NCBI GenBank assembly: GCA_023374045.1
Contig: CM041780.1
Location: forward strand, 88,191,627 to 88,255,626
Source of the DNA: Limonium bicolor
Taxonomy: Eukaryota; Streptophyta; Magnoliopsida; Caryophyllales; Plumbaginaceae
Direction of reading: 5' to 3'
DNA: 64,000 bases
Within the stretch, counting starts at the first letter, position 1, and each line of letters begins with the position of its first letter. Of this stretch, positions 13,085 through 48,770 are shown in pieces. Both the position numbers and the translations under genes were made by a program. Under the pieces are notes generated by a model, which worked only from the letters and a program-made list of their open reading frames with translations, was not told the DNA's origin and searched no databases.

Positions 13085-13952
13085 TGAAATACCCCAAACC
13101 TTAATATATTGTTTAAACACTTAAATATGGTATATTAAGACTAAAAAGAGTCTTAGAAACATTAGTAAACAAATTTAAACAAAAGAAAACACAAGATGTG
13201 CTTTAAGGTCAATAAAGGCCAAAATGTGCTCTAAGCTTGGGGTAAGCTTGGTTAAGACCTAATGAACTTACCAAGATCTTAATTATATGCTAATGAACAT
13301 ATTAAACCATTACCAAAGAAAACCAAGCTTGAAAACAAGTTTAAACACAAAATGTGCTTTAAGGAGTCTTAAAGCACATTTTTGAAAAATTGTCTTGTAA
13401 ATGAATTTTGAATGGCTAAATGTCCATCATTACTCTTTAATTACATGTGTACTATATAGTATCACATTTGGAAGTCTATATCAATGGGAAATCAAAATTT
13501 TCACTTCTATGTGCCTTGTTTTCATGAATAGTGATTTTTATAAGCTATTTTGTAACATATGTTTGTATAAGTAATTAAATTGACAAATAAAGACTATAAT
13601 ACCCTCATACTACTATTGGGGGCCGGTTTTTAAGGTTGGTGACACACCACCCTTGTTAGCTTGTTAAGAAAATAAAGAAGACTACTTAAGTACCTTTTTA
13701 CTTTATAAAGCATAATATCTTCAAAAGCAAATTCTATCTTATTCTCTCATTTCTTTCCTTCATTTCCCACGGTTCCAAACACCTTCTTCAACATCTCTTC
13801 TTTATTCTCTCACGGTTTGCAATAGTACACACCACCATCTCCATCTTTGATCTCTTGTAAAATCTAGCTCACTTGTCCAAATCAAAACAAACACCACCAA
13901 TCTCTTCCTCTCATCAAGCTCTTCATTTCTATCTTCTTAAAATTCCAAGACA
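13085..13952 (+). mobile_element. LTR start (F), plus strand, runs into the gap
   Basis: TGAAATACCCCAAACC begins at 13085, and the next 870 bases are homologous to, but clearly diverged from, the inverted copy at 14453-15196. Whether this is a solo LTR or the 5' LTR of an element hidden by the gap cannot be told. Confidence 0.65.
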
Positions 13953-14452
13953 NNNNNNNNNNNNNNNNNNNNNNNNNNNNNNNNNNNNNNNNNNNNNNNN
14001 NNNNNNNNNNNNNNNNNNNNNNNNNNNNNNNNNNNNNNNNNNNNNNNNNNNNNNNNNNNNNNNNNNNNNNNNNNNNNNNNNNNNNNNNNNNNNNNNNNNN
14101 NNNNNNNNNNNNNNNNNNNNNNNNNNNNNNNNNNNNNNNNNNNNNNNNNNNNNNNNNNNNNNNNNNNNNNNNNNNNNNNNNNNNNNNNNNNNNNNNNNNN
14201 NNNNNNNNNNNNNNNNNNNNNNNNNNNNNNNNNNNNNNNNNNNNNNNNNNNNNNNNNNNNNNNNNNNNNNNNNNNNNNNNNNNNNNNNNNNNNNNNNNNN
14301 NNNNNNNNNNNNNNNNNNNNNNNNNNNNNNNNNNNNNNNNNNNNNNNNNNNNNNNNNNNNNNNNNNNNNNNNNNNNNNNNNNNNNNNNNNNNNNNNNNNN
14401 NNNNNNNNNNNNNNNNNNNNNNNNNNNNNNNNNNNNNNNNNNNNNNNNNNNN
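13953..14452. other. Assembly gap (500 N)
   Basis: Exactly 500 unknown bases, which suggests a placeholder length. The gap separates two inverted LTR copies and removes most of E1's 3' LTR and its left insertion boundary. Open frames spanning it have no meaning. Confidence 0.99.
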
Positions 14453-15196
14453 GGCTAGATGGAGCTAGCATGGAGTTGCTCTTCACGTTAATGGAGAAGG
14501 GAGAGAGAGCAAGAAATCGTGAGAAACAAAGGAGAATGAAGAAGTGAGGAGAGAGAACTAATAAAGTGTGATATTTATGTAAAAGTGAATAGTGCTTTTG
14601 CTTTACAAAACTTTATTTGCCTAATGAGTCATGAAGGTGGTGACTCACCTTATAAGAAACCGGCCCCCCTTTGTAACAGGGGTACTTAAGTCATTGTTGA
14701 CCAAATATCTCACTTATATTGACTTATGTTATAAACTAGCTTAAATAATTTACTATTCACCAAACAAGGCACATTGTTGTGAAATTTTTGATTTCCCATT
14801 ATATAGACTACTTCCAAATGTGATACTATATAGTACACATGTTAATTAAAGAGTAATGACGGACATTTAGCCATTCCAAACTCATTTACAAGACAATTTT
14901 TCAAAAATGTGCTTCTCCTTAAAGCACATTTTGTGTTTTAACTTGTTTTCAAGCTTGGTTTTCTTCGGTAATTGATTTAAAATGACCATTAGGATATTAC
15001 TAAGGTCTTAGAACATATTTGGGTACTCTCCCAAGTCTCTCCAAGCTTAGAGCACGTTTTTGCTTAAACTGCTCTTTTGGTGTTTCCTTATATTTTCTTT
15101 GATTAGAAATGTTTCTTAATGTTTATAAGGCATTATTTAGCCTCCTTATATCTTATTTTATCATTTAAACACCATATCTAAGTTTGGGGTATTTCA
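14453..15196 (-). mobile_element. E1 3' LTR, first 744 bases only
   Basis: This segment matches 42537-43280, the right arm of E1's 5' LTR, almost base for base. It ends at 15196 in GGGGTATTTCA, the reversed LTR start, directly beside the polypurine tract. The remaining LTR of roughly 3.4 kb is lost in the gap. Confidence 0.85.
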
Positions 15197-16092: not shown

Positions 16093-16685
16093 GGTCTACC
16101 GTACAACGCTTGAAAAGGTGCCATCTTGATCGAAGCGTGATAGCTGTTGTTGTATGAAACTCGATCAGATGCAATCTGTCAATCCAACTGCCCTGGAAGT
16201 CTAAGGCACATGCTCTCAGCATGTCCTCGAGTGTCTGAATAGTACGCTCAGTCTGACCATCTGTCTGAGGATGGAACGCGGTACTCACTCAGCTTGAGTT
16301 CTGTACCCAACGCTTCTCTGGTAGCTCTCCAGTACCTCGAAAGGAATCTGGTATCTCTATCTGACACTATGGTCTTTGGTATCCCGTGATGTCTCATGAT
16401 TTCTTTCTCAAATAACTCAGCTAATTTGGTCACCTTCCAAGTATCCTTCATCGGTATGAATCGGGCTACTTTGGTAAGGCGATCCACCACCACCCATATC
16501 ATGTTGAGACCTCCCCTAGCAGGTGGAAGCCCAACTACGAAGTCCATGGAGATATCATGGAACTTCCACTCGGAACTGGCATCGACTGTACCATTCCGCC
16601 CAGTCGTCGGTGCTCGAATTTCACCTTCTGGCATGTGAGACACCTCAAGACGAACTCGGTAACATCTGTCTTCATCCCCGACCAC
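16067..16685 (-). pseudogene. pol: E1 pol: integrase catalytic core
   Basis: DDE integrase core in two overlapping frames (16248-16685 and 16067-16288) with a frameshift around 16280. The catalytic residues are visible in context: the first Asp in WVVVDRLTKVARF, the second in TIVSDRDTRF, and the Glu in the helix after [35 protein letters not shown] precedes the core as usual. The enzyme would join element cDNA to host DNA. The broken frame means this copy, as assembled, would not make it. Confidence 0.9.
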
Positions 16686-17118: not shown

Positions 17119-17592
17119 TCAAACTCTTGTGATCGGTGTAGATCGTGACACTAACCCCATATAAGTATGGCGCCATATCTTCAAAGCGAAGACTACAGCT
17201 CCCAGCTCTAAATCATGTATGGGGTAGTTCTCCTCATGTTTCTTCAACTGGCGTGAGGCATATGCCACCACCTTGCCATGTTGCATGAGCACGCAACCCA
17301 GCCCTCTGCCGGATGCATCACAATAAACCTCAAAGCCCTCTGTACCGTCTGGAATGGTCAGAACCGGTGCAGTGGTCAGTGAGTCCTTCAAGTGCTGAAA
17401 TGATCTCTCACAGTCAACTGTCCACAAGAATGGTGCATCCTTCTTCATCAGACTGATCATCGGTTTCGCGACCTTGCTGAAATCTCTAACAAACCTCCTG
17501 TAGTAACCTGCCAGACCGAGAAAGCTCCGGATGTCGGTAACAGTCTTCGGCCTTGGCCAAGTACGTACGGCATCAATCTTTGCTGGATCCAC
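17119..17592 (-). pseudogene. pol: E1 pol: RT connection and RNase H
   Basis: It opens with [20 protein letters not shown] and [13 protein letters not shown], the Gypsy RT thumb/connection signature, and continues into RNase H with [35 protein letters not shown] and [19 protein letters not shown]. The first RNase H Asp (in YCDAS) and the Glu in HDLEL are present. The frame is lost after the WRHTYMG part, where related elements continue with TDHKSL. RNase H removes RNA from the RNA-DNA hybrid during reverse transcription. Confidence 0.9.
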
Positions 17593-17621: not shown

Positions 17622-18197
17622 CTAGGAAAGAGACCTGGTCAAGCCAAACTCACACTTGGAGAACTTAGCATATAGCTGGTTCTCCCTCAATATTTCCAAT
17701 ACCCTCCTCAGATGTTCCTCATGCTCAACCTTAGACTTCGAATATATCAAAATCTCATCAATAAACACCACAACCGACTTGTCCAGCTGCTCCCGGAACA
17801 AGCGGTTCATCAGATCCATAAACTTCGCCGGTGCGTTCGACAAACCGAACGGCATCACTGTAAACTCATAGTGGCCGTATCGTGTCCGGAATGCCGTCTT
17901 CTCAATGTCTCCCTCCTTAATGGCTATCTGATGATACCCCGATCTGAGATCAATCTTGGAGAACACAGATGCTCCCTTCAACTGATCGAACAGATCGTCA
18001 ATGCGGGGTAGTGGGTACTTATTCTTCACTGTCACTGCATTCAGCTCTCTGTAGTCGATGCAGAGGCGGAGACTACCATCCTTCTTCTTCACGAAGAGGA
18101 CTGGCGCTCCCCATGGTGACACACTTGGTCTAATGAATCCCTTATCCAACAAATCTTTCAATTGTTCTTTTAACTCAGTCATTTCTGCCGGAGCCAT
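17622..18197 (-). pseudogene. pol: E1 pol: reverse transcriptase, active site FIDE
   Basis: Reverse transcriptase core: [76 protein letters not shown] and [14 protein letters not shown]. In the family the active site is FIDD, with two Asp binding metal. Here the codon at 17754-17756 is GAG, so the second Asp is Glu. The frame is lost after CEFGL, where FLGHV would be expected. Together with the frameshifts this suggests the copy is not autonomous, though a single-base error is possible. Confidence 0.92.
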
Positions 18198-18900
18198 ACG
18201 GTATGGTGCCTTGGCTATCGGTCCGGTACCAGGTAGAAGCTCGATGGTGAACTCTACCTCCCTCCCGAGTGGGTGGCATGCCGGGCAGTTCCCGTGGAAA
18301 TAAGTCGGGGAACTCCGACACTACCGGTAAGTCGGGGTCGAACTCAGGGTCTCTCTTTATGTCCTGTACATAGCAGAGGTATACTTCTTCCTTTCTCCTT
18401 AATTCTCTATACATTGCCATGGCGGTGATGATCCTAGTCGAAGGCTCTCTGGGCCTCTGGCGGTATGATATTGTTACCCCAGACGGACTCCTGAGCAGCA
18501 ATCTATGCTCGGCGCAGAGGATACGTCCCTTGTGCCGCTCCAACCAGTTCATCCCGAAGATAACATCAAATCCTAGCTTACTGAACTCTATGAAACTGAC
18601 TGGAAAGTCTTCTCCCTTAATTCTGACAGTGGCTCCTCGGTAGTAACGAGTGCAACGAACCTTCTCCTTAGACGGGAGCGTAACCGTGAAGTCGGGTAGC
18701 TCATCAGCGTCTAGCCCCAACCTGCTCGCGAATGATGCCGAGACAAAGGTATGCGAGGCCCCTGAGTCGAAGAGAACTGATGCCTCAATCCCATTAATCG
18801 GAAAGGTGCCGGTGAGGATGGTACCGCTAGCGTCGCCTGTGCCTCTGTAAGTATGCTTAACGCACCTTCCGTACCGAGTCCATAACCTAATTGTGTTCAC
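18175..18900 (-). pseudogene. pol: E1 pol: aspartic protease and start of RT region
   Basis: Retropepsin-type protease with the catalytic motif LFDSGASHTFVS and the later GFDVIFGMNWLERHKGRILC strand. Linker sequence with [20 protein letters not shown] follows, as in Gypsy elements. The frame slips after PGMPP, and the RT lead-in continues in the overlapping frame ending near 18197. The first in-frame ATG is at 18900, so Pol could begin there or by an unknown readthrough or splicing route. In E2 the protease follows the zinc knuckle directly; here the AlkB domain and a stop come between. Confidence 0.88.
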
Positions 18901-19040
18901 AAGCTTTATGAGTATTGATGGTATAACAAGAGTCGTAACAATTTATATGAACACACTGTTATTTTATTCATGACCATCCTGTTTACAACGTGTGCTTTAA
19001 TCTTACATCTCCTTCCTCATCTCATTCTAACATTACATGG
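18901..19040 (-). other. Non-coding spacer between AlkB stop and protease
   Basis: These 140 bases have stops in all minus-strand frames. They contain possible donors (GTAAGA, GTAATG) after the AlkB stop, and a possible acceptor, TACTTACAG, lies just downstream near 18850. How Pol is expressed past this spacer is not clear from the sequence. Confidence 0.5.
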
Positions 19041-19778
19041 CTAATATTGTCTAAAGGTCAGGTTTAATCTTCCTGGTCTCATATGCGTCGCATTGATTAC
19101 TGCTGACGGTGCTGTATTCAGCTTGATTCTCTTAATCCCATGGTATAACATCCTTGATTCTCCTCCCAAAATTAACACATCACCTGACTTAAGTACCAAC
19201 TTATCTACACGGTCCGCACGCTTCTGCTCGCCGTATAAAAACTCTGCATCATCCCCAATGGACCAAGACACTACGGGTATCCCTTTTCGAGAGACTCCGT
19301 TGTCTCGTCCTTATCCTGGTGTAGTCCCAGTCTCCCATCCTTCTCGTAGAAGTTTACAATGCAAATGTCTGTCTGGATGTCTGGAATCGGTTCAGCTTCC
19401 AACTGCTGAGCGATTTCCACGACTTGTGTAATAACTGGATGGAACTCTTCGGGTATTCCCGGTGGTGAGACTCCATCTTGCTCCCTCATGGTTTGGTAAT
19501 TCTTGGCATACGGATTCCATTCCTTGCCCAAGCTCATCATTTTTAATTTCATCCGTGCTCCCCCTGGGTACTCCGGTGTGTAAAAACCTCCCGGTCCCAT
19601 TCCTAGTTGATTGCATCTTCTGATGATGGCTATTTGTGCTTCGGGTGTCAGGTATCCCTTAATAAAATCATACCTGGGCGGATAACCTGACATTGTTCGG
19701 TTGGAAAGTCTATGGTTTCGATGTCGGTGTGCTCCGGGTTAGGTGTAGATGGTATTGGGTAGCAGATGTTGAATCTTC
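19041..19778 (-). pseudogene. ALKBH1-like: AlkB-type (plant ALKBH1-like) Fe(II)/2-oxoglutarate dioxygenase domain inside E1
   Basis: About 245 codons between gag and protease. Motifs in order: FNIC near the start, VIRPGMILL, GMGPGGFYTPEY, MKLKMMSLGKEWNP, ICIVNFYEKDGRLGLHQDKD, SWSIGDDAEFLYG, SGDVLILGG, LYHGIKRI and RPGRLNLTFRQY, then a TAG stop. Iron ligands are His (19319-19321) and Asp (19313-19315) of HQD and the distal His (19140-19142). 2-oxoglutarate contacts are the Arg residues of RLNLTFR (19068-19070, 19050-19052). Such enzymes oxidatively remove methyl groups from nucleic acid. The motifs and the C-terminal ending resemble plant ALKBH1-type proteins. Two one-base deletions, near 19657 and 19288, break the frame; both look recent or erroneous, because the protein resumes without loss. 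The domain itself shows no intron, as expected for cDNA capture. Confidence 0.9.
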
Positions 19779-19914
19779 CTAAAGTGGTAGTAAGTTATAT
19801 CTTACTTAAGTTATAATCTCATCTTATTCTTACTTAACTCATTTATTCACCAAGCATGCATGATAATGCGGTAAGCAGGTAGTTTTTTTTATTACTAAAT
19901 GGTTATAATGGTAC
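19779..19914 (-). other. Candidate intron 3 joining gag to AlkB (136 bases, GT-AG)
   Basis: The minus strand reads CCAG|GTACCATT at the donor and TTACTACCACTTTAG|GAAG at the acceptor. The interval is AT-rich and has stops in the gag frame. Removing it joins gag (ending SSRP plus one base) to the AlkB N-terminal frame in phase 1, with no stop, through to the FNIC motif. The match of phase on both sides is the main support. No transcript evidence is available here. Confidence 0.55.
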
Positions 19915-20202
19915 CTGGCCTTGATGAGAGTTCAGGCTCATCGTCCCGGTCCACCATGTGTAAAGTGGGTCCCGACTTCTGGGTCGCCCTTGGGTTCTTG
20001 TCTGCCGGCTGCTGCACCTTCCTCTGACCGTCAGATCCAGCTCCCTGATCGGTCTTGCCCTTGCCCCTGGTATCGGGCCTATAGGCTCTGCTAGCAGGGT
20101 TCCGGTAACACTCATATGCCCGGTGTCCATAAACTCCACAAAAGTTGCACTCCACCTTATTCCCTTTACAATCAAGTCCGGGGTGGTCCTTGTGACACCC
20201 AC
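19915..20202 (-). CDS. gag: E1 gag exon 3: zinc-knuckle region
   Basis: It encodes the nucleocapsid part of Gag: a first Cys/His cluster (GGCHKDHPGLDC) followed by a CX2CX4HX4C zinc knuckle, CNFCGVYGHRAYEC, then a basic, low-complexity tail (RGKGKTDQGAGSDGQRK). Zinc knuckles bind the element's RNA for packaging. The open frame actually runs from 20284 to 19895; I trim it to the candidate splice sites. Its reading frame is the same as exon 2 and continues into AlkB through candidate intron 3. E2 has the matching knuckle at 52300-52402 but with protease directly after it. Confidence 0.75.
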
Positions 20203-20337
20203 CTACAAATGAAGCGTCGCTGGTAGCCACCATCGGCTCCCTTCTCAGTCTCAGATCCTGCTGATTCATAATGTCAATTCTCATATCTCAAATGGTTACT
20301 AATTTGTTTCTTAACTCATTTAATATCAATTCCTTAC
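20203..20337 (-). other. Candidate intron 2 in gag (135 bases, GT-AG)
   Basis: Donor AAGG|GTAAGGAA and acceptor TTCATTTGTAG|GTGGG on the minus strand. The unspliced frame has a TGA stop at 20288-20290 inside the interval. Splicing removes a multiple of three bases and joins a basic Gag tail directly to the zinc-knuckle Cys/His cluster. An alternative is that the TGA is a plain nonsense change, so this is weaker than introns 1 and 3. Confidence 0.4.
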
Positions 20338-20593
20338 CCTTTGGCGCCCTAGAGCGCAGGGGTGTAGCTGCATAAGCATACGTCAACTTCAGTGGCTCTT
20401 CCGGAGCCTTCTCCTTTTCCTCCTTCCCCTTTGGGTTCTGATTTTTCTGGGCCTGAGGCTGGTACTTTTGTTTCTTGTACCCTCCTTGCCCTTGACTTTC
20501 TGAGCTCTTACCAGCAGTCTTCCTCTTAGCATTCTCCTCGTCCCTCAGCTGGACGGTTATCTCAACCTTAGCAGCGGCATGATAGCACTCCTC
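20338..20593 (-). CDS. gag: E1 gag exon 2: basic linker
   Basis: It opens EECYHAAAKVEITVQLRDEE, which resembles the end of the Gypsy Gag capsid domain, followed by a Lys/Gln-rich tail (KKQKYQPQAQKNQNPKGKEE). The open frame upstream to 20617 is ascribed to intron 1. It probably links the capsid with the RNA-binding zinc knuckle. No stop lies within the segment. Confidence 0.65.
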
Positions 20594-20679
20594 CTGCTTT
20601 TCCATAGTATTAGTCACTCTTATTTCTCATAATCTAAATCTTACTCATTACTTACTCAAATCTCAATCATTCTTATTAC
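20594..20679 (-). other. Candidate intron 1 in gag (86 bases, GT-AG)
   Basis: Donor TTGCAG|GTAATAAG and acceptor GGAAAAGCAG|GAGG on the minus strand, with a plant-like branch-point sequence GTGACTAATAC about 22 bases before the acceptor. The interval is AT-rich and has stops in the gag frame. It is phase 0: the codons CAG and GAG on either side are intact, and the join gives continuous Gag-like protein. An out-of-frame insertion is the alternative. Confidence 0.6.
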
Positions 20680-21321
20680 CTGCAAGGTAGTATAACTCGT
20701 CGGCCCCATACCGTAGCGGAGTCGATGGCTAAGCCCGCCATAGAAGCGGTCCACCAGGATCTGGTCAGAATATCCAAGACCTGGCAGAAGACGGAGCAAG
20801 GCAGTGAACTCTGAGTAATACTCGTCCACTGTCATCTTGTCCGTCTGCTTAAGCGCATCCAACTGTAAGCGCTTCTTCATCTGGACATGGGCGGGGTAGT
20901 ACTTTGCTCGTAGCAAGGCGGTGTACTGCTCCCAGCCGAACTCTGGATTGGCCACATGCTCGGCCCTCACCAGCTTCCACCAATCGCCTGCCGCCCCCTT
21001 TAGATAGAAAGCAGCTAGACGCACCTTGATCCCAGCAGGGACATCAAGGGTCTCGAAGGCGGTCTCCAACTCGGAGATGTACGCCTCAAGCTTGGCGGGA
21101 TCGGTCTCCCCCTTAAAGTGCGCGGGTCGAAGATCTGCAAGACTCTTCACCCAGTTTAGTTCCCTAGGTTGTGGCGGTGGAGGTGGTGCACCCACACCAG
21201 GCTGATAGCCCATATGCCCTAATGCGGCAGCTACGATCTCTGCGATCGTCTGCCCTCCAGGTATTCCTGAAGCATCATCACCCTGGCCGCGACCTCGGCT
21301 TCCCCTAGGACGTCCTGCCAT
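20680..21321 (-). CDS. gag: E1 gag exon 1: capsid (retrotransposon Gag) domain
   Basis: Gag forms the virus-like particle. From ATG 21321 (chosen over 21333 because MAGRPRGSRGRGQG has the basic start typical of Gag), the protein has a Pro/Gly-rich region, then a Retrotrans_gag domain: FKGETDPAKLEAYISELETA, LKGAAGDWWKLVRAEH, FGWEQYTALLRAKYYP, MTVDEYYSEFTALLRLLPG and FYGGLSHRLRYGMGP. About 214 residues with no frameshift, the best preserved part of E1. The frame would stop soon after 20680 if candidate intron 1 were retained. Confidence 0.9.
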
Positions 21322-21530
21322 CTGAATAAGCATAATTCACATTAGATTTGTATTCACCACTGTTTCGGTTAACGAATTTATAACGTTCGTAGACGATAAA
21401 GACGATCCACGCTTATTAGTGGCCATCTGACTCTACTCACTCTAACTTCTCACACCCTTAACCCATCACTTATTCCTTAGCTTATATCCTAACTCGGTGG
21501 TTACTCATGTCCGGTATTTCTTGATCAGAG
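21322..21530 (-). other. E1 5' untranslated region; primer site not identified
   Basis: About 200 bases lie between the 5' LTR and the gag ATG. The expected initiator-Met primer-binding motif TGGTATCAGAGC is not found after the LTR end, although E2 has it. The sequence here is CGCTCTGATCAAGAAATACC, which looks rearranged. The LTR terminus is also CG in place of CA. Either this copy is mutated here or it uses another primer. Confidence 0.55.
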
Positions 21531-23039
21531 CGTAACACCCCATCCAAAGCCATTCGTGGTTAACGCAAAACTGAACACTTAATCGAATACGTCGCAACGG
21601 AATTAAATAACACCTGGACCTTGCCACGGTCTGATCGTTAGAATATACCGGCCTTAACATTTACAATACTTATCCAAAATACTTATCCAACTCAAAACAT
21701 CACCATCCACAATACCACAACCAACCGAGTACAAATATCTTACACATGATCGCAACCTTACTTCAGTTTAAATATAAACAGTCGGGTGCACAGGCGCAAC
21801 CCGAACTCAAAATAAACATCCCACCCTAAGTCTAACCGCTCCTACTCTCGTAGTGCGTCCTCATGGGTCTCTTACCTGCAAGTGTAAAAATAGCCCCCGA
21901 GGGGGTCAGCACGAATGCTGGTACACCCTCTCATGGCCCCCAAGCTAACGGGGCTACGACGACTAATTGTCGATAGCATGGAAATTGATTACATACACAA
22001 GCATAATATGAAGTGCAATAACAATAACCACAGATGAACATATATAGTTCACAAACCATGAACGACTCCAGCGTTCCCTTATCAAGTGGGTTAGTAACCC
22101 CCTCCTTAGTCCTCATTTCCTTAATCTCAGTACCTTACCTTAATCTCAATCTAAATCTCAAACTTAATCTCAGTTTACAAACCGTTCCTGGAAGGGATTG
22201 GTTGTAGCTTAATTCGAACCTGGGATTTAGGTGATCCCACCGCACCATCTTAATGCCACCTACTCTGGACGGGAGTCCAGCGTAGCTGAGCCGGCAACCG
22301 GCCCTAGGCTACAAGTCCGAAGACAAGTCCACCTTAAGCGGAGGGTCGGATCTGATTCAGATACCGTCCCCCTTTTTTCCTTAGCATGCATGACTGGAGA
22401 TCGTTCCCGGTTTTCCTCACTCAAGTTCCAGTTAGTAAAATCTTAATCTCACCATGTGCTAGCTAAGCCTTAACGGCATTAACCAACAACCACCAAACTT
22501 AACTCTTATTCTTAACTCAGTAAGTACTAAACTTTGGTTAGTAACAATCTCAAGTCTCGCGGGTTAGTGTAAAAGATAACACAAACACAACGAGAATAAA
22601 TATAACCGGTGCATGCTTTTAATCTTGTTTTTAGTCATAGCAATTAAACAGATAACACACAAGCCGAGGGACACCTCTTAGCAAGCAGGCACAAGAAGGA
22701 TTGTACCGTTCCACCGTCGACGATCGTTTGGTTTATCTCCTTCCAAGTCCCAATTCACAAACCTAGAACATTGATTCAGTTTTAGGTTATTATTCAATCC
22801 AACTCAATAGAATTTACTTAACCTTCCTAGACATCAACTTTTAACCCTTTGTTTTTCACTAAGCCTTATGGTTTTAACTTGACTCCTAAGTGCATCATTT
22901 CCTCTTTATTATTACACTTACTCTCCCACCTTAATGACCATTACACCACCAAACTGTCCCTGCAATAATCTTATAACATCCGTACTTAATTATCCCCATC
23001 ATTTCCTAACCTTAAACAAGGTTTTTGGTCCATACAGTG

Positions 23040-23209: not shown

Positions 23210-25194
23210 TGTGGAGGTGATTTTTTTCGGTATGAGGGGGGTCTATCTAAATATGGACTTACTGAGAAGCCTAGATCCTAGAAATTGCCATTCTGTGGGG
23301 GGTGAAAAACCCGTTATTCATGGCAGCCCTCAAACCTATTACATCGTCCGTCTTTCCCAGAAAGCATAAAGGGGAATGCAATGTGCACTAAACACCCGCT
23401 CTCAATGGGCTCCACGCGGACTTATGCCCTAAGGGCGGAATTGACTAGAGTCGCCCGCCACCTAGTTTGACCTAAGATACTAGGAAGGAAAGGAAGGAGG
23501 GTTCTAAGAACCATTGGTTGACTCTGAATTTATTGCCTATGGATGGGGCTTATTCGGTCATACTAGAGATTCTGTGTGGTTCGCACTGGGTTAACACCCC
23601 TTAGAAGTGGCAACGACCACGACTTTGGATTGGTGCCCGAGGAAGCCTCGGTCTCCAATTGTCGGGATTTGCCTTCTTTCAAAACCTTATTAGAGAGATT
23701 CAAATAAAAGCCAAAGGATAGGATTGAGTGCGGGTTGAGGATTAGATGATTTAGAAGAGTTTGGAGAATAGGTTGGTCTTGGAGTTGGTTTGGTTGAAGT
23801 ATTGAGAGGTTTTGATTGTTTTCTGAGAGGTTTGAGGTTGTTTTGACTTTCACGAGAGCAAAGGATGCTGGGAGTTTTGAGGAGCAAAGGGGTATTTTGG
23901 TTATCTTTGTGAAGTTGAGAGATGCTCAGATTCTTTGGTGGAATTGAGGAGTTTTTCGTGTTTTGTAAGGTTCAGGTTTCGAAGGTTAGCTTTTTGAAAC
24001 GTTTTTGTGAAGCCAAATGTGTTAAAGAAGGGTTCAGGTTTTCGAGATAATTTGAGCGTGGGGGATGGTCGGTTCACAAGTGTTTAGGTTTGAGGTGGCT
24101 AAAATTGTCCAAGAGCATTCGGGAATTTGGAGGTCCTTAGAGTTTGTTCAGTGACGGATTGAGAAATGTTTATGTGACTTGAGGTCCTATGGGAAGGGTT
24201 GTATTGGCTCATTCAGAATTGGTCTCTCTTACCGAAAAAATCATTTTTTGTTGTAAAAGGGCGGATAATCCCGAGGGATTACCCTATGTACCCCCTCGAA
24301 CACGACACTTAATTAATAGTAAGTGCCGAGGCTCGAAAGATGGGGCAATGAATTTATGTCGAAAAAAATAGGATTCAGAGAGAAACACCATGAATGAGAT
24401 GTTCTCGGTCGAACCCTAATAACGTCTCTAACTCCCGGGGTTTTAAAACATTAAAAACCGAAAACATTGAAATCGAGCGGAAGGGAGTTAGACGATTCTA
24501 AAATCCCGGCTGCAACTAGGAAGGTCGTTGCTTTTCCTAGCACCCCGCCTTGTAAAAATCTAGGCTGCAATCAGGGGAGGTTTGTCACCCTAATGCCCCG
24601 CCTAAGGAGATCCAGACTGCGACAAGGGAGGTTACGACCCCAGTGCCCGCCTCGGATTTTTATTTTAGAAGAAAGACATTGGTGTCTAGCTAGGAAGAAA
24701 ACGCTCTTTGAAGGTGTTTAGACATCCCATGTTCCCCAAAAACGGTTTAGGTTTGAGTTTGAAACTGAGTTGGAAACTTTTGAAGTTGTTCGGAATTCTC
24801 GATGAAGAAACACTGATTTTGAGAAAATTTTTAGGAGAAAACTTTCTGTATATGTGAGAAGAACTTTCTGCACATTTTGAGAAGAGTTTTCTGTGATGTG
24901 AGAAGAGTCTTTCCATTAAAATTCTACAAAATAGTTTCCTTTTGAATAAAGTGATGGTTTGAAATTCTTTTTTGTTTTTGGATTTTGAAAGAATTTATGA
25001 GTTGAGGTGAAATGGATAAAATGAATTTGAAATTGAATGGAATTGGGCTGATTTGAATTGGGATGAATGAATTGAGTTTGAGTTGAATTGGGTTAGAATT
25101 AAATTGGGTTTGAATGAAATTTACAAATTGGGTGTGGATTGGATGAAATATTTGGTGGTTTGAATTGAATTTGGTTGGAATTGGATTTGGGCCG

Positions 25195-25640
25195 ACATTG
25201 AAAAACGGGACATGTCAAAGTTTGGGTCAGTCAAAGTTGATTGGTCAAAGTCAAGTTAGGTCAAGGTCAAATTTGGATTGGTCAAAGGTAGACCAGGTAA
25301 AAGTTAGGTCAAGGTCAACGTTTGGATTGGTCAAAGTGGGGTCAAGGTCAAAGTTTGGGTCAATGTTGGGTTGGATGGGCCGAGTGGGCTGGATGGGCTT
25401 GGTGGGCGAATGGGCTTAGTGGGCCGAAATGGGCCTTGGTGGGATTAGCTTTGGAATTGAATGGGCCTATTTTGGTCTTTGTTGGAAATTGGGTCTTGTT
25501 TGAAGTTGGGCCGAAATGGGGCCTTGTTGGAGTTGGCCCGAAAATGGGGCCCTGTTTGGAGTTAGGTCAAAATTGGGCCTTGTTTGGAGTTTAGGCCAAA
25601 ATTGGACCTTGGGCTCTTGATTTCAATTTGGCCTTGTTTG
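25195..25640. repeat. Low-complexity GGTCAAAG / GGGCCTTG repeats
   Basis: Irregular short repeats of GGTCAAAGT, then TGGGCCGA and GGGCCTTGTTTGGAGTT, occupy this part of the LTR. The second LTR has the same at about 37500-37925. Confidence 0.75.
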
Positions 25641-28120
25641 AGCTGAGCATGTTTATGTTTGGGCTGAATTGATCTTTCGATTTTGGGCCGAAGTGAGCTT
25701 TTCAATTTGGACTGAAGTAGCTTTGGGTTTGCCTGATTTTAGCCTTTGATTGTTGGGCTTTTTATTTGGAAGGGCTAAGAAATGTTTTTGGGCTGAAATG
25801 AACCATGGGTTTGATTTGGACTTTGGTTCCCAATTTGGGCCTTGGTTGGGCTTTATCGATTTATGGGCTTGACTTGTGAAATAATAACAAGTGAGATGGA
25901 TCAATTTATTGATTTATTAACTCTTGATTATGGGTGTGTGAGGGCAAAGGAGGATTCCACCCACAATAAAACGGATGAGAGATCCGCTAGCATGGAGTGG
26001 TTTCACATCCTAGTCTTCCTAAGAGAGCCCTAAGGGCTTATTCTTTAAATATTTTAGCCTTATAGAATAAGGGATGGTTTTGGTGTTTTCTGAAGCTATA
26101 GGAGATTACTGCCCCACGAAACGAATGAGAGACCCGTTAGGTGTGGAGCAATAATGCATCCGAAACTTTTCTGTCAGTTTAAAGGTCCCTAAGGTGATAA
26201 CTAGGGCTTAAATGATAAGAGTGAGGAGAATGAAATAAAGATTATAATTAATGCACGGCACAAAGATATGCATACAAGAAACAGATCCAGTAATATTAAA
26301 GTCATCAAAAATGCAAACCGAAGCTTGAAGTAAATGGTCCTGTTTCGCTTCCATGTTTACAACTAGTGAAATTTTCCCTAAACAACGAAGTCTTGAAGCC
26401 AAACGTTACAAACTCCAATAGTTAATCACATCGGTTTGTCACTTCGTCATTTCTCGTTCATTTTCATCAGTTGAATCTCATGCAGATACCAACTATACGA
26501 CACCTACATCACTCAGATCCTATATCACAATGTACAAAACAGAACTAGAGAAAAGAAATTAAAACTTCTTGAACGGTTTATAGCAGAAAACCCAAATCAG
26601 AGACCAAATATACACTTCCACTTTCATTCATTCGAACTCCTAACACCCTTATTGAAGCTAAAGAAAATGAACAGTACAGGTGCTTAGCAGTAGCAGAGAT
26701 ATAATATCAACAATAACAGAAACAAATCGATTATGGCAGCGTGAGACGATTTCTGAATTTAAAAACAGCGCCATAGCAGAATCCCCGTTTTATTTGAAGA
26801 AGCCCATTGCAGGCTAAAAAAATAGACTACTAATTTGTTTAAGGTAGAATTAACCTAGACTACTCCTGTTTGGTATAATTGACGAGCATAATCTCAGGCA
26901 TCAACAAAGTTTTAAAAAAATGATCGATCCTAATATTAAAGAGCCGAGAGCAGTTTCAATGATAGCCCAAATAAAACAAATCAATACACAACATGTAATT
27001 ACCCGCCTGAAGCATTTAAACCCCATATGATCTGCCTATGGTAATTGACCACTTCAAATCCGTAAGCAGCACATAGGACACAATACAGAACCGGAAGAAA
27101 ATGTACAGCGCGAAACAGTTAGGCAAAACAATATGTGGCATTTCAGAACAGCAAGGAACACCAACCCAAAATCAACAGGCTCGAAAAACTTTGCAGAAAT
27201 ATCTTCATTGCTACCGCATTATCAACCCTTTCAGTTAAGGAATAAGTACCGATTGAAGGAAAATGAAGATTCATGAGGTTCGGGGCTCTTCACTCAGTGT
27301 AGACATGACCACGAGCATGAAACAGATAACACAACGAACGGGGTTCGAGCATTGACCTTCGCATCGAGTTAGGCTCCAGGAAGCATCAGGCCATGTCGAA
27401 TCGAGCGTTCCAACGAGGATAGCAGTCCTGTCCATTAGCCAATTCAAATGAAGGTACCGATATTCAAATCGGACCAAAGAGATAAACAACCCGAGATTAG
27501 TTCTGGGGATTTAACCGTTATTTGAAACAAAAGTAGGAGTTGTTTAGAAATTCGGATTCCTTCCCTGTAACTTGTGGTCACCGGCCATTGATTTCTCCAA
27601 AACCTCAGTTTGCTCTGGCTTGAACTCGTACGTCAATAAAAACCACAGAGACACACAAATCAGAAAAAAAATATTTTAACAGAGGAAGAAGCAATAATTT
27701 CTCAACCAGAGGTGGATCGGGATTGGAATGGAGCTTAGGGCTTCCGAAAAGTTCACACATCTAACACAAACAACATAAGTGGGACTGTGTCGAGTGCCAG
27801 AAATGCACAGCGAAACAAGTTTTCTTCGGGATTCCTCAACGAATGTCGGATTCGTGGTGGATTTTTTAAGAAAACGGAGCTCTTAAGAGTAAATTGTGTT
27901 TCTGGGTTTTTTGGTTTTCAGATCGATAAGGGAATCGAAGAATGGGAGGAAAGGGTCGAGAGAATCATGGGGGGAAGAAGTTGTTTCTCTGGTTTTTTGG
28001 TTCTTTGAGTCTCGAGAGGGATGGAGAGGGGAGCAAAACCGAGAAGAATATGAAAGTTAGGAAGGAGTGTCGGCTGCTGATTTTGAGGAAGAGCCCCCGT
28101 AGTCCTTTAGGTTTTTTTCA

Positions 28121-28130
28121 CTATATAGGC
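28121..28130 (-). promoter_or_regulatory. Probable TATA box of the Tat/Ogre-like LTR
   Basis: GCCTATATAG on the minus strand, about 400 bases into the LTR, a normal distance for a U3 promoter. The same sequence is kept in the other LTR at 40433-40442. Confidence 0.55.
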
Positions 28131-28530
28131 AAGAATGGGATGGTTTTTGACTAAAAAGAAGGGCTGATATAACGTGGGCCGTTTGTAGTGGCTCCAATTC
28201 GGGCCTGGCGTGAATACTAGGCTTGGGTGTTTGTTTGGGTTTATAGGTCCAGTGTTTGGGGCTGGAATGGGGTTTAAGGGATTGGGTTAGGTCATACTTC
28301 AATTAAATGTGGATTGTTTGAAAACAGAAGAATGTTTGGAAATTCATTTTTAAAGAGATTGGGTTTTTTGAGAATGTTTTTAAAAAATTGACTTGAAAAG
28401 GTTGACATAAAAAGATGATTTCGTTTTGGCACGCATGTTGATATGTTTTGAAAAAGAAAGGCGACGACCCCCCTATTGTATTCATTATTTTGGAATTTGC
28501 TTTATGGGGTGAGAATTTTTGGTGTCTACA

Positions 28531-28545
28531 GATGGCTCCCCTTGA
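28531..28545 (-). promoter_or_regulatory. Polypurine tract of the Tat/Ogre-like element
   Basis: TCAAGGGGAGCCATC on the minus strand ends exactly at the LTR start TGTAGACACC. The purine run sets the strand of the element. Confidence 0.7.
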
Positions 28546-28640
28546 TTCAATTCTGCAAGCCCTTGCAGAATAGGATCAAGGTTGACGGGGCGCCAAAAAT
28601 TCTCACTGTGATTTATGATTTGTTCTTAGGGTGCGGGTGC

Positions 28641-29620
28641 ACGGGGACTTATGACGGGCCCCAATTGCGGTGTTTGATGGTATGAGGACTAATGACGGGC
28701 CTCAACTAGATCTCGGTGTCTAGCTCTAGGACTAATGACGGGCCTAGAATACGATCAAACAACTATGCATGAGGACTAATGACGGGCCTCAACTAGAACT
28801 CGATGTCTAGCTCTAGGACTTATGACGGGCCTAGAATGCATCTTCGAAATGTATGAGGACTAATGACGGGCCTCAACTAGATCTCGTGTCTAGCTCTAGG
28901 ACTAATGACGGGCCTAGAATACAATCGGTATATGGTTATGCATGAGGACTAATGACGGGCCTCAACTAGAACTCGGTGTCTAGCTCTAGGACTTATGACG
29001 GGCCTAGAATGCATCTTCGAAATGTATGAGGACTAATGACGGGCCTCAACTAGATCTCGGTGTCTAGCTCTAGGACTAATGACGGGCCTAGAATACAATC
29101 GGTATATTGGTTATGCATGAGGACTAATGACGGGCCTCAACTAGAACTCGGTGTCTAGCTCTAGGACTTATGACGGGCCTAGAATGCATCTTCGAAATGT
29201 ATGAGGACTAATGACGGGCCTCAACTAGATCTCGGTGTCTAGCTCTAGGACTAATGACGGGCCTAGAATACAATCGGTATATTGGTTATGCATGAGGACT
29301 AATGACGGGCCTCAACTAGAACTCGGTGTCTAGCTCTAGGACTTATGACGGGCCTAGAATGCATCTTCGAAATGTATGAGGACTAATGACGGGCCTCAAC
29401 TAGATCTCGGTGTCTAGCTCTAGGACTAATGACGGGCCTAGAATACAATCGGTATATTGGTTATGCATGAGGACTAATGACGGGCCTCAACTAGAACTCG
29501 GTGTCTAGCTCTAGGACTTATGACGGGCCTAGAATGCAATTGAAAGTACGAGGACTTATGACGGGCCTCAACTAGACCTCTTGACATCTAGCTATAGGAC
29601 TTATGACGGGCCTATAATAC
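28641..29620. repeat. Hierarchical tandem array: 44-base units, 88-base pairs, 175-base higher-order repeat
   Basis: The word GGACTWATGACGGGCCT recurs about every 44 bases. Alternate copies differ: one is followed by CAACTAGA, the next by AGAAT plus a spacer. Two 88-base pairs with different spacers (GCATCTTCGAAATGTATG and ACAATCGGTATATTGGTTATG) form a unit repeating at 28851, 29024, 29199 and 29374, a period of 173-175 bases. Edge copies at both ends are more diverged, as expected from unequal crossing over. Confidence 0.92.
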
Positions 29621-29864
29621 TTTGTGGAGTTGTACAAAACTCGCTGCTTTGAGCGGCTGGTTTGAGGATGACTCTGATCGTTGGTTGATCCGGGATTGGA
29701 TGCTTTTTGATTGTTTTCGTGAGGGATGTGATAGTCGAATGTTTTTGTTGATGTGGCCCTTGACATCGTCAGTGTGGGACTTGTGCTTTCGTTTTGCTTT
29801 GACAGTCTCGCCCGATGTGCACTATAGTTTCGGGATTTGATAGAACTCTTGGCTCCAGAGTTTT

Positions 29865-30785
29865 GAGATGGCTCCGATATGGCTCCTGAGTTTATGGTTT
29901 TTGTGATTTTGTGATTGGTCTTTGAGTGGATGGTTTTTTTTTTGAGTGATTTTGGGAACTTGATGGTTTTGATATGATTAGGTGACTTCGATATGATTTG
30001 AGGGCTCCGGTATGATCGGATGGCTCCGGTGCGGCCAGATGGCTCCGGTTTGATTTGTGATTCCCTTGTGAGCAACGGCTCTGGGATGGTTGGTGGGTTT
30101 CGATTTGGATTGAGGTTTTGGGTTGAGTGGCGGGTCGATGTGATTTGTGTACTTTGATGTGATTGACATTTTTTTTGTTGTGGATGAATAGTTTTGGTAT
30201 GGATTTTGGATCGAGTGGTGGGTCGATGTGATTTACTGTGGTTGACAGTTTTTGGTTGCAGATGAATGGCTTTGGTATGGTCAGTTACGGCTTTAGGTTC
30301 TTCGAGATGGCTCCGGGATAGCTTGGGATGGCTCCGGGGAGGCTACGGGATGGCTCCATTGGTGATGACGAGGAAGAAAGGGGAACTTTCGCCTGTGAGA
30401 TGGTCGCACCCTGAGCGGGCTGCCTACGTACTCAATTCCGTATTGAGATCAGACCATACGTAGTTCGAAACTCTGTGAGCAATGTCTTGGTGACGAAATG
30501 GCTCAGACAGGGATTTGAGGTGGCTCCCGTATTGTTCTTGGCCTGTTGGGATGGCTCCCGTATGGTTTTAGGGGATGGTCTCAATGTATGAGGATGGCTC
30601 CCGAATGGCTCCAGTTTGGTTCTGGATATGGTGTTGATGAGGCTCGAGCATGACGTTGGAAGGCTCCGGAATTGTCTTCGTACGGCCTCGGATGGCTTTA
30701 GTTTGGTTTGATGTAGCTCAAGGATAGCCCAGGATGGCTCCGAGATGGTTCGATGTAGCTTGGTGATGGTCTGGGATGGCTCCAG
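29865..30785. repeat. Degenerate GATGGCTCC minisatellite
   Basis: Irregular repeats built on GATGGCTCCGG(T/A)ATGG at 12-40 base spacing. The core GATGGCTCC also forms the junction at the element's polypurine tract (28531). Confidence 0.75.
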
Positions 30786-33474
30786 TTGACATCTTTTGAT
30801 CGGAAGTTACGTTTCAACAACTGCAACTGAAGTCAACTTTCAGCGAGACTAGGCAGAGTTCTTACCGGTCGGATGCTGATGATGGAAAGGTTATGATGCA
30901 TGTAGACGTTAAATGCTAGTTACGATGCAGAACACGTATGCCATTTTTTTTGGAGAAAAGGTGTGACCCTATCTTTAATAACATGAGGTTTACGAATATA
31001 AGACATCTTTGGTTCAATCTTGAGTGATTGTTGAATTCGAATGCGTGAATCAGTTTCCTCTCATGGAGGGATGCGGGTCAATCTCTCGTGAGTATGGCCG
31101 TGTGTGCGAATGTCGTGATGATACTCTTGATGCTCGGAGCAGGATTTTCCTAAGAATTTCTTTTCGAGGTTCCAGACTTTCTGATCATCACAAATTCCTC
31201 ACTTGCAATGGGATTAGCTGTTTATGATTTGGTGCTTCGATCGAAGAATCACTCTCACTCGAAAGACCTTGTAGGGTAAGGTCACACTCTTCCGCTCATG
31301 GTCCCTTTAGGATGATGGGACATGTTGATAATGAGTATGAAGCTTATGATTCATGTTTCAGATCCGATACTTTCAGTTAACGCTCACCAACTAACGAGTC
31401 AGAGGTCTTTTATTGGGTTATAACGGGGTTGAGGGGTATGATGCATGTCACATGGGACTGGAGGATTTGTTTAGGAGTTGTGGAGTTTGTGTAATAGAGG
31501 ATATGTTTCGCCTTCGCCATGGGTGGAATGATTAGACAGACAATCTTTGAGAATCCTTTGTTGGTTTCGGAGGGACATCATTGGTCCTTTTGCTTATTTT
31601 CTCCTTCTTTGGTGTATGATTTTCTCATTCTTCTCCTTCCTTTCGGGGTATGATTTTCTCGTTCTTCTCCTTCTTCCTTTTGGAATCGTATTGGCTCATT
31701 GACTTTCTTAGACATTTCTACTAACTCTTTTGGCTTTCAATTTTGCTTTCAGCTTTGGAGTTTCATTGACTCGCTGGTCTTCTCAAACATTCTATTTGCT
31801 GTTTCATGAAAGATGGTGGGGGGGAGACCCTGGCTCCGGCTCCTTTGAGATCCTCTATTGCAGGGGTAAGTGTGTATATGTGAGTTGGCATGCTGTGGAG
31901 TCCGCAGAAAAAGGTTTATCGTGAAAGGCTCAGCGGGGCTCACTAAGGGATTACGTATAGGGGAGTCAAAGCTTTTTGGTTTTGTGGAGATCTTTGATCC
32001 TAAGTGCCTTGTCATCCTCATTAGTCAGTGATTGTTTTCTTACTACTTCTCGGATCTCTGCATGAATCACAGTTCGTATCTTGTTATCAACATTGATCTC
32101 GCTATGGTTTGTGCCTCTCCATGTGCTGAAGGAATGCACAAGTCGCTCATGGTTTTACCTCGATTGGCTCTCTCAACCTTCCCTCAACGCTCAGTGGATT
32201 GTCCAAAAGCGCTCACTTGAAATTCAAGAGAAAATACCGCTCTTCGCACACTACTCACTTGGTTTGTGGTGCTGATTTTGATTTGACCCTTGTGTTCGTT
32301 GACGGGTCGAGAGTTTTATGATTCACGCACTCTGTTCAATCAATCTCTCACGATTTTCCCGAAGATGTCATTTCGATATGGGAGTATGCAAATGCAATTA
32401 TCTACCATGCGATGTATTGTGGTAATATGGAATTACTATGTATAGGATGCATGAAATGTTGAAAATGGTGAATGAAGATGATTGACTAAATGTTTTTTTT
32501 GTGTTGTGTTTGTTTTGTTTTTGGATGCAATGCATGAATGGTAAGGTTATGACTAGTCTCGTTTGAGTCGTATTCAGCTCATGGTTCATGAAGCTCATCC
32601 CACTACTGCTGGTTTTGAAGATGGTCTAGCTGTTGGGGTCACTGTCGGGGTAGTGATTCTCAAGTGAGGTTGGGTTAGTGATTGGCTCCTGGATTTTGGT
32701 ACTTTTAGGGAGTGACCACTCCCGCATGGTGACCTTACGATATGGAAAGGACTGCTTCTTTTCATCTTGGGCACTGATGCACATGGCAGAGGCTCAAACT
32801 CCCCGGTGTTTTCTACTATCCCTTTGAAGATCAGACTTTGGATATTGAGGTGTTGGGATGAAAGCTGATATGTGATGAGGTGAGGATGGAACACGTGATA
32901 GTGCAATATTTTTTATGGTAGACAGGACTCGTACATGACAGATGTTTTTGGATGGACTAAAGGTGCTTGTGACTTTTTTTTTACATGAATGCAATGCATG
33001 TGTTTTGCCTTGTGCTCGGTTGCATTTGCTGGTGTTGTTTATCTAGGGGATACCTCCTGTAGATATCGTGAATTCTCACCCCATAAAGCAAAGTTGATGA
33101 ATGATAAATAACTATGAGGAGTCATTCCTTATTCATTCTTCTCTTTATTCGTGCATGCCAAAAGAAACCACGTTTTAGAAAAACGATTTTGAAAACGTGT
33201 GTTTTCAAAGTGGTGGATTTTCTCAATGGGTTTTGACGCTCTGTCATTCGCAAATACAATAGGGAGTAGGGAACCCTATACACATTGATCTAAACAAATT
33301 CAAGGGGAATGTATAAACCTATACATGTAATCTATTCAGAAATGGACGAGAGAGAAAAGAATCATAGGGGAAGAAGACCTATACATCATCAATCCTAAAA
33401 AGGTCATTAAAATGGGGAAGTGTTGAGCTGGACTTCTACTGAACTCTTCTGGTCCGTCTTTGGGATTCTGGAAG

Positions 33475-33580
33475 ACTGCTCGCGCTCGGGCTCCTGGTTG
33501 GTTGCTCGCTCGTCTTCGGATTCTTGACCGGCTGCTCGCTCATCTTCGGCTCTTGACCGGCTGCTTGTTCATTTTAAGGC
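33475..33580. repeat. Short tandem repeat, about 36 bases, 3 copies
   Basis: TTGACCGGCTGCTCGCTC and similar words with a GTCTTCGG-type linker repeat about three times inside the non-coding middle of the Tat/Ogre-like element. Confidence 0.6.
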
Positions 33581-35513: not shown

Positions 35514-35516
35514 TTC

Positions 35517-40848: not shown

Positions 40849-43280
40849 GTCGGACACAAGTCGAGACTCTGAAAATTTTCACGCAACAGGGCCTGTCCGA
40901 ACGTCCATGTCCGGACGGATGTTCGGACAAGGAAAAACACTCATTTTCTAAGCCTTCAAACACTTAACCAATTTTCACCAAACTTCTCCTAAACCTCCAT
41001 AATGTCTTCTAACTTCATTTGGCACATTTACACCCTCATACAACATCCCACAAAACTCATTTTCTATCTCCTTAAACACTTACTCACTTCATACCAAAAT
41101 TCCTACACTTATGATATTTTCTCCTTGGTTTTCTAAGTGGTGTTTCATACCTATGACAGCCACTATGCCAATAATGTTCCCTCACTACTACAACATCATC
41201 TCCCAAGCATCTTTTCTTGCACTTTCCAAGGTTTTCCTTAAATTCTAAACCCTAGTTTCTCCCTAAACCACCTAAAAGTTTTATGCTCTTTTACTTCAAA
41301 CTTACTAAAGTTTTCTAGCTTCTTTTATCAACATTTACCTAAGTCCTAAATACCCAAGTACATACTTTGTGATTCCTAAATCCTTCATGGTGATACCTAG
41401 GTCATTATAAGTCATTAAAACACCTTAATCTCACCCTTTTTCATCAAGACAACCTCTAGAACTTCCTAGTGCTTCCTTAGTCATTAAATTCCCTTAGAAC
41501 ATCTCAAACACTTAAGTTCTCATTTAAATTTTGTCATGGGTTCTCTAGTATATAATACATCCTAACACTTGGTTTTCCTCCATCAAACAACCAATACCAC
41601 ACAAATTCTCATCACAACACCTTAACACACAATTTACACTAAAACTTCACCACATCATCATATAGTGCTTAAACTTAAAATGCTTGGCACTTAGGCCCTT
41701 AAATGACAATAATCTTAACCACTGAATTTCCACATATATTTGCCTTCAACCTGCGAATACACACAACAAGGCTCCCATTGAAATAAAATGCTTCTTGTAA
41801 TTCACCTTGATGTTCTTAAACTACCTCTTTTTCTCATTTGCTCCTTAGTCACAAGTTCACAAGTATAGTCATTGTTTCTCCTAGGTTATATATAACCCTT
41901 TTCTAATGTAAACTCTCTACTAAACTCATCACTTATCTAAATCCCATTCCCTTAAACAATAAAACACCTTAAGGTAAGTAATTTACCTTGTTCTTTTAAA
42001 AGCTTTAAAAAGCTTTCTTCCTTAGGTTTTTCTTTGTTCAATCTCGGTCACCAATGTGTATCTCCTTGCCAATGTTCTAACCAATATCCAATGACTCCAA
42101 TGAGTACTAGATAACACATTAACCCTAAGGAACAAACCCTAGGTTAAAAATATGCTTTAAGGTATTAAGGTGATTGTTTTACCTTGGTTCCTCAAGACAA
42201 GCTTGGATATGAAGCAAGAAGGACCTCCTCAATCCTTTGAAGAGTAGAAAACAAGCTAGAACAAGGCATAAACATGGAATCCCATGAGTGTAAATTTTCG
42301 GACAAGAAAGTAAATGGTGGGAACCTAGATTTTCTTACACTTTCTTTACCTTAAGAGAATGGAGAAGCCAATGGAGTCTCCAAACTTGAATTTCCTCCTC
42401 TAATGGTGGTTTGACTTGGCACCAAAATGAAGCTCTTGAAGTTTTGAAAAGATAGAAAGAGAGAGCTTGAGCTAACTAAGAAGAATATGTAATTTGTTTT
42501 GGTTTTGGAGCTAAAATGAGTGAGTTGTGTGCAAGGCTAGATGGAGCTAGCATGGAGTTGCTCTTCACGTTAATGGAGAAGGGAGAGAGAGAGCAAGAAA
42601 TCGTGAGAAACAAAGGAGAATGAAGAAGTGAGGAGAGAGAACTAATAAAGTGTGATATTTATGTAAAAGGTGAATAGTGCTTTTGCTTTACAAAACTTTA
42701 TTTGCCTAATGAGTCATGAAGGTGGTGACTCACCTTATAAGAAACCGGCCCCCCTTAGTAACAAGGGGTACTTAAGTCATTGTTGACCAAATATCTCACT
42801 TATATTGACTTATGTTTAAACTAGCTTAAATAATTTACTATTCACAAAACAAGGCACATTGTTGTGAAATTTTTGATTTCCCATTGATATAGACTTCCAA
42901 ATGTGATACTATATAGTACACATGTTAATTAAAAGTAATGATGGACATTTAGCCATTCAAAACTCATTTACAAGACAATTTTTCAAAAACATGCTTTAAG
43001 ACTCCTTAAAGCACATTTTGTGTTTTAACTTGTTTTCAAGCTTGGTTTTCTTCGGTAATTGATTTAAAATGACCATTAGGATATTATAAGGTCTTAGAAC
43101 AATATTTGGGTACTCTCCCAAGTCTCTCCAAGCTTAGAGCACGTTTTTGCTTAAACTGCTTTTGGTGTTTCCTTATATTTTCTTTGATTAGAAATGTTTC
43201 TTAATGTTATAAGGCATTATTTAGCCTCCTTATATCTTAGTTTATCATTTAAACACCATATCTAAGTTTGGGGTATTTCA
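40849..43280 (-). mobile_element. E1 5' LTR, right arm
   Basis: Continues the LTR interrupted at 23209 and ends at 43280 with GGGGTATTTCA. Its last 744 bases match E1's 3' LTR (14453-15196), with scattered substitutions and short indels. It carries the remaining hairpin units (40849-40935). On the minus strand the segment around 42560-42640 is CT-rich and leader-like. 40940-42530 shows no other feature. Confidence 0.85.
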
Positions 43281-48755: not shown

Positions 48756-48770
48756 GAAATTAAAACATAC

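Follow-up and report, generated by a model that had tools for sequence, protein, structure and literature searches.

The window analyzed in this study, a 64,000-nucleotide stretch of the Limonium bicolor genome (assembly GCA_023374045.1, contig CM041780.1, positions 88,191,627 to 88,255,626, forward strand), harbors on its minus strand a Ty3/Gypsy retrotransposon with an AlkB-type demethylase domain between gag and protease. Its domains follow in the order gag, zinc knuckle, AlkB, protease, reverse transcriptase (RT), RNase H, and a weak match to integrase. The zinc knuckle (approximately 19898-20284) was read by eye and has no Pfam match; the order of the Pfam matches on the minus strand confirmed the placement of AlkB between gag and protease proposed in the initial annotation of the locus. 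A polypurine tract immediately precedes the 3' long terminal repeat (LTR). The parts of the element are listed below, with a slash at splice borders.

19041..19778, minus strand: exon of AlkB (ALKBH1-type 2OG-Fe(II) dioxygenase), from the putative splice acceptor to the stop; the acceptor site ends at 19779.
20659..21333, minus strand: gag exon 1, capsid part, with Retrotrans_gag (PF03732) and Ty3_capsid matches; putative intron start at 20679.
TTGCAG/GTAATAAG, minus strand: putative donor of gag exon 1, a motif in the sequence.
20338..20593, minus strand: putative gag exon 2, an open frame with splice sites in phase.
19915..20257, minus strand: putative gag exon 3 with the zinc knuckle, CNFCGVYGHRAYEC in frame, ending at the donor CCAG/GTACC.
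19779..19914, minus strand: putative intron a (Gag to AlkB), from phase arithmetic and sites in the window; 131-134 nt in copies.
18845..19914, minus strand: putative intron b (Gag to protease), about 1.07 kb, containing the whole of AlkB; from phase arithmetic and sites in the window.
18178..18844, minus strand: aspartic protease, start of pol (RVP_2 match 18178-18900, E 9.7e-26).
17625..18197, minus strand: RT (RVT_1, E 9.3e-35).
17122..17592, minus strand: RNase H (RT_RNaseH_2, E 2.8e-28).
16251..16685, minus strand: integrase core fragment (rve, E 1.1e-5, 26.1 bits, below the Pfam cutoff of 32.6).
14453..15196, minus strand: first 0.74 kb of the 3' LTR, by blastn to the LTRs of copies L011 and L028; it runs into a 500-N gap (13953-14452).
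21532..22792, minus strand: gag-proximal part of the 5' LTR, by blastn to the L011 LTR; as aligned, the border between LTR and insert lies at about 23209.
41105..43280, minus strand: outer part of the 5' LTR, by blastn to the L011 LTR; a nested element lies between it and the remainder.

The AlkB landmarks recognized in the initial annotation, namely the HQD motif, the distal histidine in YHGI, and RLNLTFR, were all present in the window, and a profile search of the region matched both halves of the domain to PF13532 well above the Pfam cutoff (19274-19693, E 2e-17; 19044-19286, E 2.5e-23). The HxD..H iron ligands and the RxxxxxR motif accompany PF13532; in the partial protein P0002, one of four related proteins from public assemblies (P0001, P0002, P0123, and P0004), RxxxxxR falls past the end. 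The nearest solved structure by sequence was rice OsALKBH1 (PDB 5xeg; E 8.7e-37 and 1.8e-27 for the two halves). In a fold search, the AlphaFold model of P0001 (pLDDT 93.4) also retrieved OsALKBH1 first (TM 0.93, 52% identity), with bacterial AlkB in second place, and human ALKBH5 and FTO were absent among the PDB rows listed in both searches. An ALKBH5-type domain was rejected, with ALKBH1 closest by both measures. On this ranking of PDB sequences and folds, the AlkB of the window element is ALKBH1-type.

Among the matches listed, the best named relatives were the plant ALKBH1C/1D "DNA N(6)-methyladenine demethylases" and similar plant proteins (42-55% identity), and within the best 120 rows P0001, P0002, P0123, and P0004 (75%, 69%, 61%, and 63% identical, respectively) exceeded every named host protein. 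In a tree, these four proteins and the two AlkB families of the L. bicolor genome (family I, that of the window element, and family II) formed one branch with a support of 89/90, which is not decisive; such a branch is compatible with one capture and is no proof of it. A search of IMG/VR with P0001 gave no relative. A host ALKBH1 donor gene was not identified in the genome, an N-terminal query giving two matches only, both at E 1.01. For annotated Gag-AlkB fusions, 332 long proteins were considered, and no gag, protease, or RT domain was found in the 120 best of them. Additionally, the annotated protein P0239 of Smallanthus (786 aa) reaches 412 bits against one AlkB domain and probably contains two such domains.

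The arrangement noticed at a single locus in the initial annotation was found in thousands of copies in the window's own genome (2.92 Gb, 2,686 contigs). An exact AlkB 30-mer occurred at 2,331 places and an exact protease 30-mer at 2,376, compared with 0 for reversed-pattern controls, and the best 150 of 44,642 candidates in a protein search, those scored, all matched at 87% or more. A sample of the places listed first on contig C1, 97 for AlkB and 100 for protease, contained 72 AlkB-protease pairs 755-791 bp apart on the correct side and strand, leaving 25 AlkB and 28 protease places unpaired; a simple capture-recapture from this sample gives approximately 3,200 copies. That the assembly is misjoined, or that a retroelement happens to lie beside a host ALKBH1 gene, has next to no probability: all that speaks for it is the single N gap of the window, which does not touch AlkB, and it is refuted by copies at one spacing and by family matches on all eight large contigs. 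A one-off fragment was likewise rejected on the copy number and the fixed AlkB-protease spacing. On C1, AlkB elements also occur in runs with a spacing of about 10.4 kb (1430330-1461707 and 49203386-49244984), which fit LTR-sharing tandem arrays.

The cores of 20 copies, picked by an open AlkB frame, were fetched, with flanks for 10 of them. All 20 had a gag or zinc-knuckle frame before AlkB and a protease or RT frame after it, and the LTR pairs of the flanked copies were full in eight, partial in one, and absent in one. Family I has LTRs of about 4.1 kb with the ends TGAAATACCCC...GGGGTGTTACA, a total length of about 14.5 kb, a polypurine tract, and a primer site, AAAGTGGTATCAGAGC, which we take to be of the iMet type. 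Target duplications of 5 bp were legible by eye in four copies (L010, L011, L015, and L019) and not resolved in the others. Summed LTR mismatches amounted to 0.36-1.8% in the eight copies with full pairs, indicating that the insertions are young. The order of gag followed by protease, RT, RNase H, and integrase is that of Ty3/Gypsy, the window's own integrase match being below the cutoff. In one copy the integrase C-terminus matched SH3_Tf2-1 (E 2.4e-27) and, just below the cutoff, Chromo (E 8e-5, 22.9 bits against 25.1 in Pfam), and the element was therefore called chromovirus-like. Judged from these features, the AlkB family is a high-copy, chromovirus-like Ty3/Gypsy family.

Coding constraint was estimated as the ratio of nonsynonymous to synonymous differences (pN/pS), from pairwise counts over 24 copies, i.e., the 20 fetched copies plus the window copy, L003, L004, and L006, the last four not chosen by frame. 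The N-terminal half of AlkB, which had served as the search query, gave 0.14 and the C-terminal half, outside the query, gave 0.16, similar to protease (0.17), with RT and RNase H at 0.05-0.06 (21 copies) and gag exon 1 at 0.20 (23 copies). The AlkB codon changes are constrained to the level of the protease; RT, the comparison suggested in the initial annotation, was at 0.05. These values argue against AlkB as a functionless passenger, derived from a host fragment that was captured a single time and then amplified with the element, since the LTR read as codons gave 0.69-1.23 (20 copies); a short non-coding linker was erratic (0.40-2.74). An indel comparison of the C-terminal half of AlkB with other regions (17 of 18 copies indel-free) was set aside because the copies had been picked by open frame. 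Open frames of at least 230 aa were present in 88 of the 150 scored matches, the query covering half of AlkB only.

A second AlkB family in the same genome was retrieved with the oil-palm ALKBH1D sequence as a query. All 117 scored matches (of 47,067 candidates) were 53-58% identical to it, most were stop-free, and each covered the whole domain without an intron. Family II is known from the one copy read, L049, the other 116 matches being unread. In L049, AlkB (391-1146, a 252-aa frame) is followed, without a change of strand, by protease and RT; it is 60% identical (147/244) to the AlkB of family I, with pS 0.74 and pN 0.25, and the start of its RT is 85% identical with pS 0.83. The iron and 2OG ligands were unchanged, and this degree of identity at saturated synonymous sites indicates that AlkB has been retained over a long divergence. 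On these divergences, family II is anciently separated from family I and likewise arranged as AlkB, protease, and RT. A passenger would hardly have kept its frame and catalytic residues for so long; this alternative is strongly disfavoured and very improbable. Taken together, the thousands of copies, the protease-like constraint, and the second old family indicate that AlkB in this element is neither a one-off fragment nor the product of a misjoin.

Short AT-rich stretches interrupt the gag of family I, and their positions agree among the six copies inspected. The borders are splice-like and keep the frame on reading (TTGCAG/GT to AAGCAG/GAG, and AAGG/GT to CTCAG/GAT), the first acceptor motif being unmatched in one of the six. 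The last gag donor, CCAG/GTACCA, was found in all 20 fetched copies and leaves 1 nt. The AlkB acceptor needs 2 nt in 18 of 20 copies (changed in one and not found in one), as does the protease acceptor in 12 of 20 (changed in one and not found by motif in seven), and the AlkB and protease acceptors of the family II copy, picked by eye, also need 2 nt. Joining of one Gag donor to either of two acceptors in the same phase would give Gag-AlkB or, with AlkB spliced out, Gag-Pol, and AlkB would then be a C-terminal extension of Gag produced through splicing. Fusions to Gag enter the element particle, and AlkB would therefore meet the genomic RNA and the nascent cDNA there; the prediction is that it demethylates the element's RNA or cDNA in single-stranded form. 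Candidate substrates are N6-methyladenine (6mA), 1-methyladenine (m1A), or 3-methylcytosine in single-stranded DNA and N6-methyladenosine (m6A) or m1A in RNA; because AlkB is ALKBH1-type, RNA and single-stranded DNA are equally likely. The described preference of rice ALKBH1 for single-stranded or unpaired DNA (PMC10469495) suggests cDNA. That the element erases methyl marks from its RNA or cDNA, as supposed in the initial annotation, is something we infer. We consider it slightly better than an even chance that the whole holds, i.e., a high-copy, chromovirus-like Gypsy family whose ALKBH1-type domain between gag and protease is likely spliced onto Gag, packed into particles, and predicted to demethylate its own RNA or cDNA.

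Several observations weigh against this reading. The 33 codons ahead of the AlkB domain, which would join it to Gag, showed a pN/pS of 1.2 on few changes, i.e., no constraint within the family, and only 14 of 34 positions of this tail are identical between the families. This would suit a free protein starting at the conserved methionine of RPGM, which is the first methionine of the frame and stands at the domain start; without a Gag fusion, such a protein would act as an m6A eraser on element or host RNA, as proposed for the Phalaenopsis element, whose AlkB-bearing ORF2 forms a frame of its own and shows m6A activity in vitro (PMC9289625). However, [FY]-[DN]-I-x-Y-P and E-x-C-x-V are conserved in the tail of four related proteins, a same-phase AG acceptor precedes it in families I and II, and the DNA preference of the rice enzyme speaks against m6A as the substrate. 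We regard a free eraser as rather unlikely, yet as the foremost competitor of the Gag fusion.

Other points concern the frames, and some would also be expected of a passenger. The window copy itself is dead: its AlkB has two frameshifts and is not one open frame, stop codons divide it from gag and from protease, pol contains further frameshifts, and the family primer-binding site is not present. One of the AlkB frameshifts, near the AlkB start, falls in the same few codons as in seven of the eight group-B copies read. This subfamily was amplified despite a frameshift that would break the fusion, indicating that the fusion is not needed in cis and that AlkB is supplied in trans or dispensable. 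Relative to L011, all eight top-ranked loci (L001-L008) differ by two indel events in the N-terminal half of AlkB, and gag exon 1 has indels in 15 of 18 copies; the C-terminal half of AlkB has indels in five of the eight top-ranked loci, among them all four not picked by frame (the window copy, L003, L004, and L006), the remaining L002, L005, L007, and L008 being the same copies as L021-L024 of the frame-picked set. Intact frames in the 20 copies picked by open frame are no evidence. Additionally, 28 of the 100 protease places on C1 had no adjacent exact AlkB 30-mer, which mutation of the 30-mer alone could explain. A search of about 2 kb upstream of the L049 AlkB revealed no gag, and for family II the layout is therefore confirmed only from AlkB onward.

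Alternatively, the enzyme could be nuclear and act on the chromatin or DNA of the element, removing 6mA or opposing Polycomb silencing in the manner of rice ALKBH1, and thereby keep the element expressed. OsALKBH1 is the closest structure, and rice ALKBH1 affects 6mA in R-loops and opposes Polycomb repressive complex 2 (PRC2) (PMC10469495). We consider nuclear action improbable, more so than a free eraser. The fullest form of the Gag-fusion reading is offered tentatively, at somewhat less than an even chance: a lineage carrying a demethylase in its particle, in which the Gag donor would choose between the AlkB exon and pol, and Gag-AlkB would coat the particle and rid the single-stranded cDNA of methylated bases during reverse transcription. 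The trait would be ancient, retained through at least two family splits, and its capture separate from that of the orchid RNA eraser. The predicted Gag splice fusion is directly testable, and effects on the element are measurable across the many natural copies, some of which have an open AlkB frame and some not.

The window contains further elements. A younger nested LTR element of 17.6 kb (23210-40843) splits the 5' LTR of the AlkB element; its LTRs of 5.3 kb (23210-28530 and 35517-40843) are 97.9% identical, and it carries an 84/91-nt tandem array (28645-29620) and longer open frames, two of them without a Pfam match. An inverted piece at 13085-13677, about 78% identical to the LTR start of the AlkB element, is probably an older relative. 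A second chromovirus, E2 (46512-55562), has an LTR pair with 97.4% identity and a chromodomain of 27.4 bits, which passes the Pfam cutoff; its zinc knuckle and protease are contiguous as read by eye, with no AlkB between them. Finally, an open frame of 419 codons on the minus strand (62742-63998) has a sub-threshold match to DUF4283.

Compared with plant ALKBH1C/1D (rice OsALKBH1, PDB 5xeg and 5xoi), its best structural match, the element AlkB shares the fold, the catalytic residues, and the C-terminal RPGRLNLTFRQY. Unlike these host enzymes, the element proteins form their own, not decisively supported branch and lack the host N-terminal part, and the element AlkB, from element copies alone, reads as one exon over the domain and precedes protease. 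AlkB domains also occur in plant RNA viruses of the Alpha- and Betaflexiviridae and Closteroviridae (as cited in PMC9289625); these too are viral replicators with their own AlkB, likened here by description only, but they are RNA viruses. In Copia EVD, splicing controls GAG output through shGAG (PMC8892269), and the gag-pol of Ogre contains a putative intron (PMC9289625). Splicing would similarly set Gag versus Gag-Pol products in the L. bicolor element, whereas the predicted effect of its alternative exon is the addition of an enzyme to Gag.

The closest precedent is the group of Ogre/Tat-like Gypsy elements of Phalaenopsis (Gypsy_Pa_2799 and relatives), whose ALKBH5-like ORF2 removes m6A in vitro (Alvarado-Marchena et al. 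2022, PMC9289625). This case contradicts the statement in the initial annotation that no established class of LTR retrotransposon has an AlkB domain. In that report, 121 angiosperm genomes were screened and the AlkB domain was reported in two Phalaenopsis species only. Among the papers listed in the literature searches, no ALKBH1-type AlkB in an LTR element was found, and only that report and a review citing it (PMC12786077) were found to treat AlkB in a Gypsy element. Both systems are plant Ty3/Gypsy elements with a conserved AlkB/2-ODD domain (PF13532), many copies, and retained cofactor residues. However, the orchid element is of the Tat/Ogre lineage with an ALKBH5-type m6A eraser, whereas the L. 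bicolor family is chromovirus-like (SH3/chromo C-terminus) with an ALKBH1-type domain. The orchid element is 25.5 kb long with 6.4-kb LTRs and a tRNA-Arg primer site, in contrast to about 14.5 kb, 4.1-kb LTRs, and a presumably iMet-type site. Its gag-pol is one ORF with AlkB in a separate ORF2, whereas AlkB in L. bicolor lies between gag and protease and gag apparently bears introns. Membership in the orchid group was rejected on the ALKBH5-like domain, the AlkB ORF of its own, and the tRNA-Arg primer site. Since the two differ in AlkB subfamily, lineage, primer site, and domain position, and no ALKBH1-type case was found in the literature listed, the L. bicolor element likely represents a capture of its own, in which a different lineage took up a different demethylase. 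The ALKBH1-type enzyme points to methylation or damage of DNA (cDNA), which the orchid case does not. If true, two AlkB subfamilies in two Gypsy lineages would constitute convergent capture, and this would be good evidence that plant retrotransposons face a real barrier in RNA or cDNA methylation.
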